In this document: piece after piece, positions 8,401 through 15,384 of the stretch
Layout of the letters: each line of letters starts with the position of its first letter
Numbering within the stretch: the stretch's first letter is position 1
NCBI GenBank assembly: GCA_028874175.1
Contig: JAPPLN010000001.1
Coordinates: forward strand, 88,296 to 152,295
DNA: 64,000 bases
Origin: Chloroflexota bacterium
GTDB taxonomy: Bacteria; Chloroflexota; UBA11872
Direction: 5' to 3'
Program-made: the position numbers and the translations under genes
Notes under the pieces: model-generated
What the model was told of the DNA's origin: nothing
The model's input: the letters and a program-made list of their open reading frames with translations, nothing else
Database searches by the model: none

Positions 8401-8850
8401 CGTCCCCGCCAGCTCAAGGGCTTGGCGGCTGTCTCCAGCCAGCGTCGCGGACGCGACCGCCCCCTGCGGGCAGCCCGAAAGCCCCACCAGCCCCCGCGTG
8501 TGCCGCGCCAGGGTGTCCGGATCCAGTTCCGCCGTTCCCTTTGGCTGATCGTGGTGCGCCGCGGTCGCCAGCCGGCAGATATTGGCGTAGCCCTCCCGGT
8601 CACGCGCCAGCAGCGTCAGGTGATGCTCTCCGGACATGCTGGCCTCCATCCCCACGATCGGCTGCAAGCCAAGCTCCCGCGCCGCATGAGAAAACCGCAC
8701 CGCGCCGTAGACCCCGTCGTGGTCGGTGATCGCCAGGGCCGTCAGCCCAAGCTCGGCGGCCCGCGCCGCCATCTCCTCGGGATGCGACGCGCCGTCCAGA
8801 AAGGAGAAGTTGCTGTGCGCGTGCAGTTCGGCGTAGGCGGGCCGAGTCAA
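5482..8850 (-). CDS. dnaE2: Error-prone DNA polymerase DnaE2
   Basis: A C-family polymerase of 1122 residues. It has an N-terminal PHP domain (ELHAHSNFSFLDG at about residue 8, ITDHDGVYG near 50), the polymerase core with RGSAPGSV and the catalytic PDIDLDIEHQERE in place of PDIDxDF, and IRPGPMTTKMHRR. Further on come IFQEQCLQIAMVAAGFS, GYGFPEAHSCAFALL and a C-terminal OB domain (FLTLEDETGLVNVIVRP). The acidic replacement of the usual last Phe fits DnaE2 rather than replicative DnaE1. The start is set at TTG 8850: ImuB's TGA overlaps it by four bases and homologous sequence begins there; the frame upstream (to 8967) is only ImuB shadow. It does mutagenic lesion bypass with ImuA and ImuB. Confidence 0.93.
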   Translation of the reverse strand: MTRPAYAELHAHSNFSFLDGASHPEEMAARAAELGLTALAITDHDGVYGAVRFSHAARELGLQPIVGMEASMSGEHHLTLLARDREGYANICRLATAAHHDQPKGTAELDPDTLARHTRGLVGLSGCPQGAVASATLAGDSRQALELAGTYAEMFEAGCFFLELQDHRLEAEHLVSAGLLEVTRHTGLPLVATNNVHYHDRARARLQDVLVCIKHTVTLETAGRRLRPNREFALKSAAEMARLFADVPEAISNTLRIAEMCEFDLSRKLEYGLPTYPTPEGESEYRYMERLVWEGVRRRYPDLDETVQERVLQELRYVENLGLAGYFLTVQDLVAFCHRNNILVNTRGSAPGSVLCYALGISMVDPIAAGLMFERFMSTERDEPPDIDLDIEHQERERVIQYVYQRYGRRRAAMVANVICFRGRSAVRDVGKALGLPLAQVDRLAQRLQWHPSVEMPNPDQAGGDVPREISSRVGRDLLELSREIVDFPRHLGIHTGGMIISSRPLDASVPIEPATMEGRSVAQWDKDDCADAGLLKIDLLGLGMLTLVQRAFRLIEQRHGRRLALADFTFDDPKVYDAVCAADTIGLFQVESRAQMHVLPQTRPRCFYDLVVQVAIIRPGPMTTKMHRRWILRRLGQEEADPVWPGLASVLQRTLGLPIFQEQCLQIAMVAAGFSATKADALRRAMSRKRSLAHIQALQDDLTQGMARNGIPAATAEQIYAQIEGYAGYGFPEAHSCAFALLVYVSAWLKVYYHAEFTCAILNSQPMGFYSPHTLVGDAQRHGVTVRPVDAQRSRFECTVESDGAVRMGYRYVESLGDNRREQLDGEIVRGPYRSLESFCRRTRLPRKALESLAMAGAFRGLGLNRRAALWQVQAYASAAHGGELPGLAAELEEPVTLPPTDALVQARMDFAATGLSTRWRGLEFLRTKLSEAGVLRAADLLDLAARRPRPRIRRVSIPAAVRRPHERSTVGKQPTGGGRLPQQIATGRYGERAHRAGNSYDGRGSGQQFQGLGDSGVPDSLREQARTGIMVAVAGIVLNRQHPPTAHEYTFLTLEDETGLVNVIVRPDVFTRYQRAVLDSPVMMVSGELQDEQGSVQVMAETCTPVSSNYLGTPPSRDWQ

Positions 8851-10403
8851 TCCAGGGCCCCCTGGGCAAACCAGCGCCCCTGGGCGCGGTCGCGGTAGAG
8901 CGCCAGCCCGCGCCCGTCGTCCAGCCGCACGTGCAGGTAGTCGCGGTCCACGGGTTCCGCCCACCACTCCGTCCGCACCCGCTGCGGCCCGTAGCGCGCG
9001 ACCACTTTCCTAGTCGTCCCATCCAGCGTCACCCGGCTGGCCCCGTCAATCCTGCTGACGTGCACCGCCCGCGGCGGCGTGAAGAGCCGCGTCAGACCGC
9101 GCGCGCCCGACAGTCCAGCCAGCCACACCGGGGAGGTTGTTGGCGCGACGCGCTGGGTGTTGGTCTCAACGTATGCGTCAACCCGTCGTGCGGCCGTCTC
9201 CAGCGTCCAGGCCCCGGGGCATATCTCCATGCGGAAGATCGCGTCGTCGCCCAGCTGCGCCCGCAGGCGGCTGATCGCGTGGTTGGCGCGCGCCACCCGC
9301 TCCGACCGGTTGCCCAGCAACGACCGCTGCGTGCCGGCTCCCGGCACCAGCTGCTCCACGTTCAGGCAGATGTGGACGACCCCGGGCCGGTGCAGTGGAA
9401 TCTCTTGTACGGCGGCCCCGGCCTGCACGTCGCCCACCCACGCCTCCAGGCGCCACCGAGCCGCGTCACGCAGGCGGGCGGCGCTGCCGGACGGCTCGGG
9501 CAGGGCCAGCGTGAACCGCTGGAACGTGCCGTCGCCCCGCTCGATCCGGCTGCCCACCTGCTGCGCCATCAGGCCCCGGCGAGCCAGCCGCGCGGCCAGG
9601 CGCTGCGCCAGGGCCTGCAGCGCAAACGTCAGCCGGTCGACGTTGTGCTCTTCCCACTCGAAGTCGATCGTTTCATTGAGGATGAGCGGTCGTGGCCGGC
9701 CCCGCGGGGGGTGTGGATCCTCGCCGCGGGCCAGCCGCCACGCCTGCGCGCCCTCGGTCCCGTAACGCGTCCGCACGGCGTTGATTGGCAGATCGGCAAA
9801 CGCGCCGATCATGCTCATGCCCAGGATCCGCAGTTGCCGGAGCGTCCGCTCGTCCAGCGGCAGCCGATCAACCGGTTGGCCGGCCAGGTACGCCCGGTCG
9901 TCGCCGGAAACCGCGGCCACGGCCGCATCCCCCGCCGTACGCGCCGCAATTTCCGCCGCCAGGCGTCCTGTCGCCAGTCCAACCTGGGCCGCCTGCCCCG
10001 TCGCCGCCTCCACGTGGCGGCGCACCCGCGCGCCCAGCGCTGCGTCCGGGCCGTACAGCGGCTCCAGGCCGGCCGCGTCGGCAAACGCCAGCCCCACCCC
10101 GGCGTCCTCCACCACCGGCGAAAACCGGTCCAGCACGTCCAGGACCGCCTCGAAGGCTTGGGCGTAGCGTGGCGGATCGTCGGGCACGTAAACGCCCTCC
10201 GGACAGCGCTGCGCCGCTTCCTTCACGGCCATCCCCGGGAGCAAGCCCGCGGCTTCGGCCGCCTCGGAAACCTCGATCAGCCGCCGCTGGTTAGCTTGCC
10301 GCGCGTAGATCGCCAGCGGCAGCGCCGACCACGACGGCTGCGTCTGCGCTTCCACCGTGGTTCGAAAGCGCGGAATCCATAGGCAGAGCGTCTTGCGGTC
10401 CAC
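8847..10403 (-). CDS. imuB: ImuB, Y-family polymerase-like translesion cofactor
   Basis: A 518-residue Y-family-like protein beginning RKTLCLWIPRF, with GMAVKEAAQRCP and DRFSPVVEDAGVGLAFADAAGL marking the palm. The catalytic carboxylates of true Y-family polymerases are missing at the usual places (LWIPRF instead of a DxD-type strand, and EDAGVGLAF rather than SxDE). This is as expected for ImuB, which lacks polymerase activity and links DnaE2 to the clamp. The C-terminal part (about 360-518) carries the typical RDYLHVRLDDGRGLALYRD ending. It lies between imuA and dnaE2, overlapping both. A 113-bp overlap with imuA is unusually long. Confidence 0.9.
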   Translation of the reverse strand: MDRKTLCLWIPRFRTTVEAQTQPSWSALPLAIYARQANQRRLIEVSEAAEAAGLLPGMAVKEAAQRCPEGVYVPDDPPRYAQAFEAVLDVLDRFSPVVEDAGVGLAFADAAGLEPLYGPDAALGARVRRHVEAATGQAAQVGLATGRLAAEIAARTAGDAAVAAVSGDDRAYLAGQPVDRLPLDERTLRQLRILGMSMIGAFADLPINAVRTRYGTEGAQAWRLARGEDPHPPRGRPRPLILNETIDFEWEEHNVDRLTFALQALAQRLAARLARRGLMAQQVGSRIERGDGTFQRFTLALPEPSGSAARLRDAARWRLEAWVGDVQAGAAVQEIPLHRPGVVHICLNVEQLVPGAGTQRSLLGNRSERVARANHAISRLRAQLGDDAIFRMEICPGAWTLETAARRVDAYVETNTQRVAPTTSPVWLAGLSGARGLTRLFTPPRAVHVSRIDGASRVTLDGTTRKVVARYGPQRVRTEWWAEPVDRDYLHVRLDDGRGLALYRDRAQGRWFAQGALD

Positions 10404-11157
10404 CGGACCTCCTCACAAACGGACAATCGATCACCAGGTGCTGCGCGCCCGTGTCGCTGCGCGACTTCAGCACCCGAACCTCCAACGTCAGCCCGAGGGG
10501 CGCCTGGGTCAGGCGACTGCGCTGCCAGCGCCAGCCCCGGCAGGCCACGCCCAGGCGCAGCGAGGCCAGGTAAGGCAGCCCGGCAACACGCTGGCTGCCC
10601 GTCGTTGTCACCGCCACCAGGCTCGCCGCCCCACGCCCCGCCAGGTCGGCCAACTGCGACCAGCGGTTGCCGCGCGGCCGGGCGCTTTCCAGGTCCAGCA
10701 GCACGGCCTCGAAGGCGTTGCTGCGCAGCAACGTTGCGGCGGCTTGCAGCGCCGTCTCGGCGTCCGGCGGCCGCACCACCACCAGCCGCGACAAATCCAG
10801 GTCCATCGACACACCAGCGGTGGGCGCGAACGTCCCCGGCAGGTCCACGTACGCCGCCAGCCCCCCGCCCTCCAGCGCAGCGCCCAGCACCCGCCACCCC
10901 AGCGTCAGCGCCCCGCTGCCCGGCGGGCCGGTCAGTTCACTCAGCCGACCCCTTGGAATCCCCTCAAACCCCGTCGCCTCATCCAGCGCCTCGATCCCGG
11001 TCGAAAACCCGGCCTCCGCTGGACTGACCCCAAACAGCCGGCCTGCGGCATGCAACCCCCAGCGCCGTTCGATTTCATGCACGGCCGTCCGCAACGCGGC
11101 GGGCCGCTCGGTGTCGGGAAGAGCCAGCGGAACACCCTGGGCAATACGGGACCCCAT
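10291..11157 (-). CDS. imuA: ImuA, RecA-like translesion cofactor
   Basis: A 288-residue RecA/SulA-like protein. FSTGIEALDEATGFEGIPRG followed by LSELTGPPGSGALTLGWR (about residues 50-85) is a RecA-type region with a P-loop of form GPPGSGALT. VDLPGTFAP and VVVRPPDAE follow, and SLRLGVACRGWRWQRSRL closes the core. ImuA regulates mutagenic bypass by ImuB and DnaE2. The ATG at 11157 is preferred over an in-frame TTG at 11169. The last 37 codons overlap the start of imuB in another frame and look unlike a conserved protein, so the true C-terminus could be shorter if there is a sequence error. Confidence 0.85.
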   Translation of the reverse strand: MGSRIAQGVPLALPDTERPAALRTAVHEIERRWGLHAAGRLFGVSPAEAGFSTGIEALDEATGFEGIPRGRLSELTGPPGSGALTLGWRVLGAALEGGGLAAYVDLPGTFAPTAGVSMDLDLSRLVVVRPPDAETALQAAATLLRSNAFEAVLLDLESARPRGNRWSQLADLAGRGAASLVAVTTTGSQRVAGLPYLASLRLGVACRGWRWQRSRLTQAPLGLTLEVRVLKSRSDTGAQHLVIDCPFVRRSGGPQDALPMDSALSNHGGSADAAVVVGAAAGDLRAAS

Positions 11158-11174
11158 GATACCAAACAAAAAGC

Positions 11175-11353: not shown

Positions 11354-11743
11354 ATGCGCACAAATGCCACGTTCAAGATCTTGAGTTGGGACGAGGAACC
11401 CTTCGACGAACCGGAGGACGGGCCAAAGCTCACCCGCGCGCACATCCGCAAGTCCTTCCATGGTGATCTGTCCGGCACCGGCAACCTCATGTACCTGATG
11501 ACGCACTTCGAGGATGGGAACGCCACGTTCACGGGTTTCGAGAAAGTCGTGGGCGCCCTGCACGGCCGTTCGGGCAGCTTCGTCTTTCAACACACCGGCT
11601 CCTACGACGGACAAACCGCCACCGCCGACTACGAGGTCGTCCCAGGCTCCGGCACCAACCAACTCACCGGCCTCTCCGGCACCGGCAGCTTCTCCGCCGG
11701 CCACGCCGAAGAGCACGACATGACGTTGGACTACAAGCTCTAG
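11354..11743 (+). CDS. DUF3224-family protein
   Basis: A 129-residue protein of the DUF3224 type, an allene-oxide-cyclase-like small beta barrel. It opens MRTNATFKILSWDEEPFDE, then shows GDLSGTGNLMYLMTHFEDGN and the characteristic GFEKVVGALHGRSGSFVFQH followed by GSGTNQLTGLSGTGSF. The biochemical role of this family is not established. The ATG at 11354 follows GGGAGC by seven bases. It is divergent from imuA, with about 200 bp between, and is followed by a repeat-rich gap. Confidence 0.8.
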   Translation: MRTNATFKILSWDEEPFDEPEDGPKLTRAHIRKSFHGDLSGTGNLMYLMTHFEDGNATFTGFEKVVGALHGRSGSFVFQHTGSYDGQTATADYEVVPGSGTNQLTGLSGTGSFSAGHAEEHDMTLDYKL

Positions 11744-11966
11744 CTCACTCCCCGAACTTCGCTGACCCCGGAATCCCAGGACACTCCAGGCACGCCTCTC
11801 TGCCCTGGGAGACCTCCGCGTAACACCCCTTGTCCTCGAAGGTGCGGCCGCTGTCGCCCCTTACCCTGTGTAAGGGTTGCTCATGCTCCCTCTCCGTTGA
11901 GGGAGAGGGCTGGGGTGAGGGTGGCTGCCTCGGTGAAGCAGTCAGGCCAAAGTCGAGCACCTTCTT

Positions 11967-12080
11967 CCGGGGCCGCCGCTCTTTACCCTCTCCAAGGGGA
12001 GAGGCAGAACCTGCCCCGGACTCGATCCGGGGTTCCGCCGTCCGCGGCGGAAGTCGGTGAGGGGTCTTCCGGGCACCCAC
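11967..12080. repeat. Structured direct repeat, copy 1
   Basis: Shares with 12141-12230 the order GGGGCCGCCG, ACCCTCTCC-AAGG-GGAGAGGCAGA (a 7-bp hairpin), a variable palindromic centre, then TCGGTGAGGGGTC..TCCGGGCACCCA. A further CTCTCCGTTGAGGGAGAGGG..GGGTGAGGG unit sits just upstream at 11895-11925. Confidence 0.65.
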
Positions 12081-12140
12081 CCTCGAGTGACGCAAACTCC
12101 ACGTCGGGGAAGAGCAGATTTGCTCGCTCGTCCTCTCGTC

Positions 12141-12230
12141 AAGGGGCCGCCGTTATTCACCCTCTCCGAGGGGAGAGGCAGATTCGGGCGTCTTCGGCCG
12201 AAATCGGTGAGGGGTCCTCCGGGCACCCAG
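12141..12230. repeat. Structured direct repeat, copy 2
   Basis: Second copy of the element at 11967. The hairpin CCCTCTCC-GAGG-GGAGAGG is kept, and the centre is a different palindrome (GATTCGGGCGTCTTCGGCCGAAATC). This shows paired-base replacement of the kind expected of a structured element rather than of coding sequence. Confidence 0.65.
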
Positions 12231-12456
12231 GCCCAAAGCCATCCACCTCGCCCGCCGTCCCGATCACTCTTGGGCAGCTCCGTCTCACTTCGCTCCCCTC
12301 GCTCCAGCCCCTTGGCATGAGGGATCTTCCGGGCAACCGACCCCTGGGCCACGCGTGGCTCTTGACAAACCGCGAAGGACCGCAGGCGACGGTTAGTCGC
12401 AGGACCAACCACTTCAGACGTCGGAACAGCCGGCGAAGACGCCCTGATTCGCCTGG

Positions 12457-12774
12457 CTACTGCGGCAAGTCGGGGGGCGTATCCGTGCGACGAATGCGCT
12501 GAACGACTTGGCGGCCGCCCTTTCCGATCCCACGCACGCCCCGCCCGATCCCCCGTCCCGCCAGCGCGAGGGCAGGTAGGACAATCGGGAGCAATTTAAG
12601 GAGCGTGTCTAGGGCGGTCTTCAGAAGCTCCCAAACGACCTTGACCAGGCCGGAAGCGAGCTTGAACACGGTCTTGAGCAGCTCCCAGAGGACCTTGACC
12701 AGGTTGGCCGCAAGTTTGACGACGGCATTAAGCAGCGCCCAGAGGCCCAGAACCGGAAGAATCAGCGCCTTCAT
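12457..12774 (-). CDS. Small protein of three 18-residue amphipathic helical repeats with a basic tail
   Basis: A 105-residue protein not matched to a known family. Residues about 6-60 are three tandem units of exactly 18 residues: PVLGLWALLNAVVKLAAN, LVKVLWELLKTVFKLASG and LVKVVWELLKTALDTLLK. Trp, Leu-Leu and Lys positions are conserved. Eighteen residues make five whole helical turns, so each unit presents the same face, as in lipid-binding or surfactant helices. A proline-containing hydrophobic stretch (LLPIVLPALALAG) and a Gly/Arg/Lys-rich tail (GRGIGRGVRGIGKGGRQVV) follow. The last two repeats are also alike in DNA. A membrane or lipid-droplet association is inferred. Start ATG at 12774; no clear ribosome-binding site. 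Confidence 0.6.
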   Translation of the reverse strand: MKALILPVLGLWALLNAVVKLAANLVKVLWELLKTVFKLASGLVKVVWELLKTALDTLLKLLPIVLPALALAGRGIGRGVRGIGKGGRQVVQRIRRTDTPPDLPQ

Positions 12775-13047
12775 CGTGCGGCAGCTGCGGTTCGGCGCGG
12801 GTTTCTAGCCATGCGGGTCCCACTCTCGGTGTCCGCTAGTGCCGTTCTGCTCTCGCGGTATTTGACTATGTGGAACAGGGCCCTTTCAGGACCAGCGCCG
12901 AGCACGGTCAATATCAGCCGATTCTACCCGTCAGCGGCGTGCGGATCGGATGTCAGAGAGACGCCGAGGGAGTGCCGCGAAGCGACTGCTCGCTGGCATG
13001 ATGAGCTCGCTGCACCGCTGCGGAACTGACCCGCAAGGACCCCACCC

Positions 13048-14034
13048 ATGAAGCGCATGGCCAAGCCCGCCGGCCGCGGCAACGTCGTCCTCGAAGACGC
13101 CCCTATCCCCGAGCCGGGCTACGGCCAGGTCCGCGTCAAGGCCGTCCGCAGCCTCATCAGCCGCGGCTCCGAAATCGGCTGGCGCTACGTCCGCGAGGAA
13201 GCCGTCGATCCCCAGATCATGGGCTACTCCATGGCCGGCGTCATAGACACGTTGGGCGACGGCGTGGAGCACCTCGCCGTCGGCGACCGGGTGTGCGCCG
13301 TCTCGCCGCACGCGCAGTTCGTGGTGGCCGCCGCCATTCCCGAACGCCAGGCCAAGCTGCCCGAGATCCTCCCGCTCTCGCCCGACGTCAACTGGGACCA
13401 GGCGCCCTACTGGATGCTCAGCGCCTCGGCCGTTCGCTGGACGGACATTGCCCCCTTCGAACCCGGCAACGTCATCGTCGTCCTCGGCCAGGGCCTCGTC
13501 GGCAGCCTCATCCTCCAGGTCATGCGTGCGATCGACGCCGGAACGCTCATCGCAATCGACGCCACGCCCCTGCGCTGCGAAATCGCCGCGACCTTAGGGG
13601 CCGACCACGTCGTAAACGCCGCCGCTGAAGACCCCGTCGCGGCCGTCAGAAAGATCAGCTACGGCGTCGGCGCGGACCTGGTCGTCTACGCCGTCGGCGG
13701 ACCTGCTGGCCCCACGGCTTTCAAGCAGGGCATGGACATGCTCGCCGACGGCGGCACGCTCCACCTCGTCGGCAAGTACGAGCATCAATCCCTGCCCCTC
13801 AGCTCCGAAACCATCCAGAGCCGCCGCATCGTCGGCGGCTTCTTCGGCGGCCAATGGCACGCCGGCTCCGCCCGCCGCGCCCTCGCCCTCCTCGAATCCG
13901 GCGCCATCCAACCCGACCGCATGACCACCCACCACTTCCCCTACACCCAGGCCCCCCAGGCCTACCACCTCCTTCACGACCACACCGACCAAACCCTCGG
14001 CGTCCTCCTCGACTGGGACATCGACGACAGCTAA
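13048..14034 (+). CDS. Zinc-free MDR-family alcohol dehydrogenase-like oxidoreductase
   Basis: A medium-chain dehydrogenase/reductase of 328 residues. It has a GroES-like N-terminal domain (EPGYGQVRVKAVRSLISRGSE, GVIDTLGDGVEHLAVGDRV) and a Rossmann domain with the dinucleotide motif VVLGQGLVGSLILQ at about residues 146-159, then LGADHVVN. The catalytic and structural zinc Cys/His clusters are absent: GSEIGWR replaces the usual Cys-Gly-(T/S)Asp pattern. This form is common in sugar- or cyclitol-related Zn-independent members, often annotated as threonine dehydrogenase-like. The substrate is not predictable. AAGGA lies upstream of the ATG. The gene stands alone. Confidence 0.85.
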   Translation: MKRMAKPAGRGNVVLEDAPIPEPGYGQVRVKAVRSLISRGSEIGWRYVREEAVDPQIMGYSMAGVIDTLGDGVEHLAVGDRVCAVSPHAQFVVAAAIPERQAKLPEILPLSPDVNWDQAPYWMLSASAVRWTDIAPFEPGNVIVVLGQGLVGSLILQVMRAIDAGTLIAIDATPLRCEIAATLGADHVVNAAAEDPVAAVRKISYGVGADLVVYAVGGPAGPTAFKQGMDMLADGGTLHLVGKYEHQSLPLSSETIQSRRIVGGFFGGQWHAGSARRALALLESGAIQPDRMTTHHFPYTQAPQAYHLLHDHTDQTLGVLLDWDIDDS

Positions 14035-14431: not shown

Positions 14432-14932
14432 ATGTCGATGGACGGTGCGTCGATGACGCTCAAACGCTTCGGCCTTGGGGTCGGTGCCCTTTTCATCGTC
14501 GTGCTCGTCGTGGTGGCGGCCGTATTCGCGGCGATCTGGCTCATTCAATTCGGGTTGTTCCGCGTGTTCACCTCAACCTCGGTGACGCGGACCTACAGCA
14601 GCCAGGACGAGTTCAGAAAGAACATCGATGTTGTCGAGGGCTCAATGCAATGGAAGGTCGTCAACGCACAGGACTCGCCGTTCGATGACATGGTGTGGAT
14701 CAGCTTCAAGTACACGCTCCGCAACACCTCCGACCAGGACATCGTGGTTGGTGGTTGGTCGGACCTCATGGTGCAGTTCGTTGATGCCGACGGGTTTGCG
14801 GTCTGGCAGCCGAACACAGGGACCGACTACACCGTCCCGGCCAACAGCGAGTTCACCTTCACCCTCGTGGACAACGTAGAGAAGGCCATAGCCGACCAGA
14901 TCGCCGACATGCGGATTGACGGGCCGGACTGA
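14432..14932 (+). CDS. Membrane-anchored beta-domain protein A
   Basis: A 166-residue protein with one N-terminal transmembrane helix (LGVGALFIVVLVVVAAVFAA, about residues 14-33) and an exported domain of about 120 residues. That domain reads MQWKVVNAQD..WISFKYTLRNTSDQDIVV..FVDADGFAVW..TVPANSEFTF. The alternating beta pattern with a charged FKYTLRN strand resembles Ig-like/FxLYD-type extracytoplasmic domains, but no named family is recognised. It is clearly paralogous to the next gene, which starts on the last base of its TGA stop. Start chosen at 14432; the internal ATG at 14453 is possible. Confidence 0.7.
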   Translation: MSMDGASMTLKRFGLGVGALFIVVLVVVAAVFAAIWLIQFGLFRVFTSTSVTRTYSSQDEFRKNIDVVEGSMQWKVVNAQDSPFDDMVWISFKYTLRNTSDQDIVVGGWSDLMVQFVDADGFAVWQPNTGTDYTVPANSEFTFTLVDNVEKAIADQIADMRIDGPD

Positions 14933-15384
14933 TGCGCAAAGGCATCCTGCTGGGCATCGGGGCATGGTTGTTCATTGTGTCGGCCGTGATAATCGCGCTG
15001 GCGGCTTGGGCGCTCGGCCTAAACTCGATCACTCGCTACAGCGCGTTGCCGGACGATGAAAAAGTAAACGAAAACATTGCGGTAATCGAGGACTCCGTTG
15101 AATGGAAGCTAATATCGCGTTCCGATAACCGCGGCAATAATTCACGTGTTTCCTTCAAGTTCACGTTACGCAACCCGACCGGATCGGATATCCAGGTTAG
15201 CGCATATGGTCTACGCATTCGATTCTATGATTCTGAAGGCTTTGCCCTTTCACGCTTCAACTACGCCGACGCGTTCACCGTGCCGGCCAATGGCGAATAC
15301 ACCTACTCGGCCCCGCACGACCTGCGCGGCGGTCTCGGCGAGCAAGTGGCCTTCGTTGAAGTCCTGGGCGTAAGGTCGAAGTGA
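14932..15384 (+). CDS. Membrane-anchored beta-domain protein B (tandem paralogue)
   Basis: A 150-residue protein. N-terminal transmembrane segment about 4-28 (ILLGIGAWLFIVSAVIIALA), then the same beta domain as the preceding gene: VEWKLISRSD..VSFKFTLRNPTGSDIQV..FYDSEGFALS..TVPANGEYTY. The start shares its A with the previous TGA (TGATG), so the two are translationally coupled and may form a heteromeric surface complex (inferred). Its middle part (about 15040-15260) is noticeably AT-richer than its neighbours, which hints at different ancestry or relaxed constraint. No known family is recognised. Confidence 0.7.
   Translation: MRKGILLGIGAWLFIVSAVIIALAAWALGLNSITRYSALPDDEKVNENIAVIEDSVEWKLISRSDNRGNNSRVSFKFTLRNPTGSDIQVSAYGLRIRFYDSEGFALSRFNYADAFTVPANGEYTYSAPHDLRGGLGEQVAFVEVLGVRSK

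Follow-up and report, generated by a model that had tools for sequence, protein, structure and literature searches.

The window, meaning the whole 64-kb stretch of DNA analysed here, contains at 12457-12774 a short ATG-initiated frame, referred to below as gene X. Its product consists of three consecutive 18-residue units, a hydrophobic stretch with two prolines and a basic tail. The features of the gene and of its DUF3224 neighbour are collected in Table 1.

Table 1. Gene X, its internal parts and the neighbouring DUF3224 gene (positions in the window)
Feature	Position	Strand	Remarks
DUF3224 gene	11354..11743	+	PF11528, E 2.9e-41; convergent (tail to tail) with X
Gene X, cationic amphipathic repeat protein	12457..12774	-	105 aa + stop, ATG start; five orthologues, dN/dS, stop-free frame
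Residues 73-105, Gly/Arg basic tail and conserved terminal DTxPDxP segment	12460..12558	-	six-row alignment
Hydrophobic stretch, residues 58-72	12559..12603	-	Pro63 and Pro67, both invariant in six orthologues
Unit 2, residues 40-57	12604..12657	-	Trp48; 11 of 18 residues common with unit 1
Unit 1, residues 22-39	12658..12711	-	Trp30; 11 of 18 residues common with unit 2
Unit 0, residues 4-21	12712..12765	-	Trp12; most hydrophobic unit, mean hydrophobicity 0.69; lag-18 self-alignment
54-nt DNA tandem repeat, two copies	12615..12722		12615-12668 and 12669-12722, 78% identical

When residues 1-75 of X were aligned with themselves, the similarity at lag 18 reached z = 7.2, which not one of 2000 shuffles attained; the five orthologues likewise all peaked at lag 18 (z 5.9-6.5). 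As a control, 3354 windows of 75 residues from the open frames of the 64-kb window were scored at lags 11-30. The X stretch at lag 18 took the top five rows, two of them being other reading frames of the X DNA, and the best value elsewhere was z = 4.4. The protein of 18-residue units that had been proposed for this place by an earlier, sequence-only reading was thereby confirmed. The three repeats which that reading called exact are exact in length, at 18 residues each, but their sequences differ: 8 of 18 residues are common to units 0 and 1, 11 to units 1 and 2 and only 4 to units 0 and 2. The claims that two of the repeats are duplicated in the DNA and that a basic Gly/Arg tail follows them are both correct, the first for the pair of 54-nt blocks and the second for residues 73-96. 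Across the six orthologues (the window copy and five others) X has a net charge of +11 to +12, and the hydrophobic moment within residues 73-105 rises to 0.87.

Conservation of gene X and age of its repeat

Orthologues of X were found in 5 of the 12 other genomes of the genus, at 77-89% identity and without gaps over all 105 residues; at one locus (L062) the frame continues for four more codons before the stop. A scan of genome contigs returned 398 pattern-matching stretches, five of which encode relatives, and these are the same five loci, all in Chloroflexi MAGs. The dN/dS values were 0.145-0.245 for the window X against each orthologue and 0.127-0.358 for all 15 pairs.

The sequence-only reading had named a chance frame over a tandem repeat, with no homologue anywhere, as the case in which its proposal would fall. 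We consider it extremely improbable that X is such a chance reading, or that the gene lies on the opposite strand. One opposite-strand frame does share the wobble columns of X and contains no stop in four of the six orthologues, with one stop each in the window and in L061. Yet X is the only one of the six frames that is stop-free in all six sequences, and its changed codons are silent in 61% of cases vs. 8-42% in the other five frames (42% in the opposite-strand runner-up and 8-14% in the remaining four). Amino acid replacements are also more conservative, with an average of +0.53 BLOSUM in the X frame vs. -0.71 in the runner-up, and in each of the five comparisons the observed identity of X lay above all 2000 random-mutation simulations with an equal number of changes. 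The six-frame test rejects an opposite-strand gene, and the case of a chance frame without homologues is excluded by the five orthologues, the low dN/dS and the best-preserved frame. X is a real, conserved gene under purifying selection.

The duplicated DNA had also been taken as a sign of recent expansion, and this did not hold. Within each of the six orthologues, the 54-nt block of unit 1 is 72-78% identical to that of unit 2, while a comparison of the window with its orthologues gives 78-89% identity for the same two units. Recent expansion was rejected because the identity of unit 1 to unit 2 within genomes is no higher than the identity between species. A comparison of repeat number among homologues showed that all six orthologues have three units of the same length. 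Given this constancy and the divergence of the units within each genome, the duplication is most likely older than the split of these species.

Helix geometry and relation to known proteins

The hydrophobic moment of residues 4-63 is maximal at 100 degrees, where it amounts to 0.43 as compared to 0.19 for shuffled sequences (sd 0.05; 0 of 2000 as high). AlphaFold2, run with the six-row alignment, predicted a single helix over residues 5-98, with pLDDT of 87-91 for residues 11-50 and 54-67 after residue 60, and a pTM of 0.32; a Foldseek search of this model against the PDB gave no match. The amphipathic helical repeat of 3.6-residue period that had been read from the sequence is supported. We infer that this period is more suited to a helix that lies flat on a surface than to a coiled coil, for which a 3.5-residue period would apply.

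On the wheel of residues 1-70, the charged residues and Asn (Lys/Glu/Asn/Asp) fall at 60-140 degrees and form a polar stripe ~80 degrees wide, in which Lys20 and Lys38 lie at 100 degrees, Glu31 and Glu49 at 120 degrees and Lys also at 60-80 degrees. Trp 12, 30 and 48 stand at 20 degrees, at the edge of the stripe, and by the same angle formula Leu 14 and 15 and their repeats are found at 220 and 320 degrees. The proposal that Trp, Leu-Leu and Lys recur on one face thus fails. Positions of the stripe are invariant across the six orthologues in 16 of 17 cases vs. 26 of 43 elsewhere (Fisher p 0.012), which is to be read as support and not as proof, since the sector was picked from the same sequence. 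At 14 of the 18 variable positions only hydrophobic residues are exchanged. Among 19-residue stretches, hydrophobicity is highest for those centred around residues 10-13 (1.94-2.04) and 64-67 (1.73). Residues 1-18 and about 55-72 are sufficiently hydrophobic to span a membrane; in units 1 and 2 the hydrophobicity is lower (0.77-1.25) and the moment strong.

The remark that no family comes to mind was borne out by the profile searches. X had no match to Pfam and NCBIfam profiles at E up to 10, and the six orthologues together gave one weak Pfam match (E 0.62). PADLOC models returned 0 families for X and 0 for the DUF3224 protein, and weak matches in PHROGs to phage tail tape measure proteins (best E 0.021) were not significant. 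Searches of phages and of plasmids with X gave no match, and none of 13 pattern-matching stretches in viral contigs was a relative. On these grounds a phage or plasmid origin of X was rejected. Nothing convincing was found among PDB sequences (best E 0.041). Literature searches on 18-residue amphipathic repeats and on apolipoprotein-like bacterial repeats yielded no relevant paper, although we do not claim that the family is unpublished.

Passages of PMC8000854 dealing with helix classes assign to class A a polar side with an acidic centre and basic edges, define class L by a central cluster of positive residues on that side, and describe the class L helix 18L without an acidic residue. Measured against these passages, X shares with the class A helices of apoA-I and of the designed peptide 18A the 18-residue unit, the 100-degree period, the Trp and the broad hydrophobic side. 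It differs from them in the narrow stripe of ~80 degrees and the strongly positive net charge, and the class A charge layout is not present in X because Lys, instead of acidic residues, occupies the stripe centre. The apolipoprotein-like design suggested earlier therefore stands for the geometry and not for the arrangement of charges. The central cluster of positive residues on the polar side is a likeness to 18L, from which X departs by keeping one conserved Glu per unit in units 1 and 2. Leaderless and circular bacteriocins of saposin-like fold have cationic amphipathic helices with Trp, as X does; unlike them, X has 105 residues, an 18-residue internal repeat and a model of one long helix (of low confidence after residue 60), whereas leaderless bacteriocins appear in passages of PMC6072434 as compact helical bundles. 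The neighbouring gene product is a clear member of the DUF3224 family (PF11528), with PDB relatives 2q03 and 2ooj, to which X is unrelated.

Joint inheritance with DUF3224 and the genomic site

In a search of the class (41 genomes), X turned up in 6 of the 13 members of the genus and not in any of the 28 others. A search of the phylum (400 genomes) gave full-length matches in the same six, and partial ones in 24 more with E from 2.3e-4 to 0.09. The best partial match (L066), the one of these 24 that was inspected, falls within a frame of 637 aa that we read as an ABC transporter containing membrane segments, and it was therefore taken as a composition match.

The presence of X coincides throughout the genus with that of full-length DUF3224. 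Both genes occur in G000, G001, G005, G006, G008 and G011, and both are absent from G002, G003, G004, G007, G009, G010 and G012. By arithmetic, such a perfect match of 6 among 13 has a chance of 1 in 1716 if the labels are independent, an assumption that linkage and kinship violate. The distance between DUF3224 and X is ~0.1 kb in G001, G005 and G011, compared with 0.3 kb in G008, 0.7 kb in the window and 6.2 kb in G006. A tree built from the rpoB of 12 of the 13 genomes (G003 yielded none, and four rows were partial) requires five changes to account for the distribution of the pair, and supported branches force no fewer than four of these; the near-sisters G001 and G007 differ in its presence. 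Three genomes of the order outside the genus have DUF3224, and no X was found near it there; DUF3224 therefore does not need X. The joint inheritance may reflect physical linkage alone. A literature search on DUF3224 gave no paper and nothing on the role of the family. The paired presence and absence of the two genes makes a functional link directly testable and gives DUF3224 a setting.

The site itself could be compared between the carrier G011 and the non-carrier G007, in which both flanks align around ~1.28 kb (L100 10042-11324) and 124 bp of other sequence, respectively. The 1.28-kb segment of G011 holds just DUF3224 and X. Gaps in MAGs could hide genes, but the site in G007 is assembled through. 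To the left of the difference lies a small gene that we take to be DUF2283-like and to the right an N6/N4 DNA methylase; an IS1595-type transposase and another methylase are found nearby in G007. No convincing terminal repeats or target duplications were detected at the ends of the cassette. In G006, genes for a HerA-type ATPase, a 442-aa protein without a Pfam family and a DNA methylase lie between DUF3224 and X (L096 1943-6626) and may represent a defence module that entered the same hotspot. Directly before DUF3224 in this genome, a fragmented stretch (L096 135-495) resembling the start of an MDR dehydrogenase suggests repeated rearrangement at the site.

Candidate role at the membrane

Our preferred reading, which we hold tentatively and at slightly under an even chance, is that X is a peripheral, in-plane membrane helix with a polyanion-binding tail, serving DUF3224 in a two-gene accessory cassette. 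Residues about 4-60 would form one nearly straight amphipathic helix in the plane of the lipid surface, with the broad hydrophobic side sunk into lipid and the invariant, narrow Lys/Glu/Asn stripe directed towards the headgroups. Trp would act as an anchor at the stripe edge once per five turns, the Pro-containing stretch of residues 58-72 would insert deeper, and the Gly/Arg tail of residues 73-96 would hold anionic headgroups or another polyanion. As one half of a small accessory cassette, the other half being DUF3224, X would probably anchor or serve its partner at the membrane. The observations establish the gene, its repeat, its conservation, its shared inheritance with DUF3224 and the presence or absence of the pair at one site. 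From composition, periodicity and conservation we infer the membrane part of this reading, and from the shared gain and loss of the two genes their partnership; the topology of X, its contact with DUF3224 and its purpose are conjectured. Taken further, X and DUF3224 might make up an undescribed two-gene accessory system of Chloroflexi, in which the cationic helix acts at the membrane for DUF3224 (as an anchor, a sensor or a self-permeabilising effector) and the cassette moves in and out of a hotspot carrying DNA-modification genes; this wider proposal is possible but rather unlikely as a whole. If its membrane role is as we suppose, X offers a clear natural case of a protein that arose through duplication of an 18-residue membrane-helix unit, with six orthologues to hand.

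The two most hydrophobic 19-residue stretches would also suit an integral protein that spans the membrane with residues about 3-19 and 57-73; the two repeats with Lys, situated between these segments, would then run along the membrane, and the basic tail would remain inside. We regard this topology as fairly unlikely, given that units 1 and 2 are less hydrophobic and have a strong moment, that the 18-residue period includes unit 0, and that no hairpin appears in the AlphaFold2 model, though the six-row alignment is thin. That X is instead a soluble helical protein, its hydrophobic side shielded through self-assembly or in a complex with another protein such as DUF3224, seems quite unlikely to us. 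Amphipathic helices are able to form bundles, and on this point the sequence alone does not discriminate, but most of the helix of X is taken up by its hydrophobic side, its period of 3.6 residues (100 degrees) is not the 3.5 of a common coiled coil, and the PDB searches gave no similar chain.

The high positive charge and the amphipathic, Trp-bearing repeats would also be expected of a membrane-permeabilising peptide, which could be secreted in the manner of leaderless bacteriocins or turn against the producing cell as a toxin or abortive effector, its protective or controlling partner being DUF3224. Such a role would agree with a patchy two-gene cassette in a region of DNA methylases and with the HerA-type ATPase between the genes in G006. 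This defence or toxin reading draws on neighbours, charge and patchiness only and is weakened by the slow evolution of X and by the absence of a PADLOC match for either protein. Moreover, the genes converge and form no operon, no exporter was identified beside them, and the single long helix of the model differs from the compact bundles described for leaderless bacteriocins in the passages of PMC6072434 mentioned above. We judge it unlikely, and we retain a peripheral helix serving DUF3224 as the preferred reading.

Some further observations concern the surroundings of the cassette. In the window and in G008 it stands beside a gene pair that we presume to be ImuA/ImuB-like on the basis of RecA and IMS matches. 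In the remaining four carriers, the best ImuB matches are on different contigs. The ImuB-like polymerase-family gene of the window overlaps the RecA-like (ImuA-like) gene (8847-11169); for most of the remaining genomes of the genus, the ImuB match maps to another place and is longer or has a split frame. No sigma-70-type promoter or terminator was found in 12000-13200. Between DUF3224 and X, at 11879-12340, the window contains repeated elements of 47-, 40- and 21-nt families, 85-95% alike and of the kind 'CCCTCTCC...GGGGAGAGG'; a stricter pattern for these elements had no occurrence in the window, and several relatives have similar pieces upstream of the MDR gene. At 14432-15384 the window encodes two small proteins side by side, each with a hydrophobic stretch at the N-terminus and without a Pfam family; in several of the relatives, related copies follow the MDR gene.
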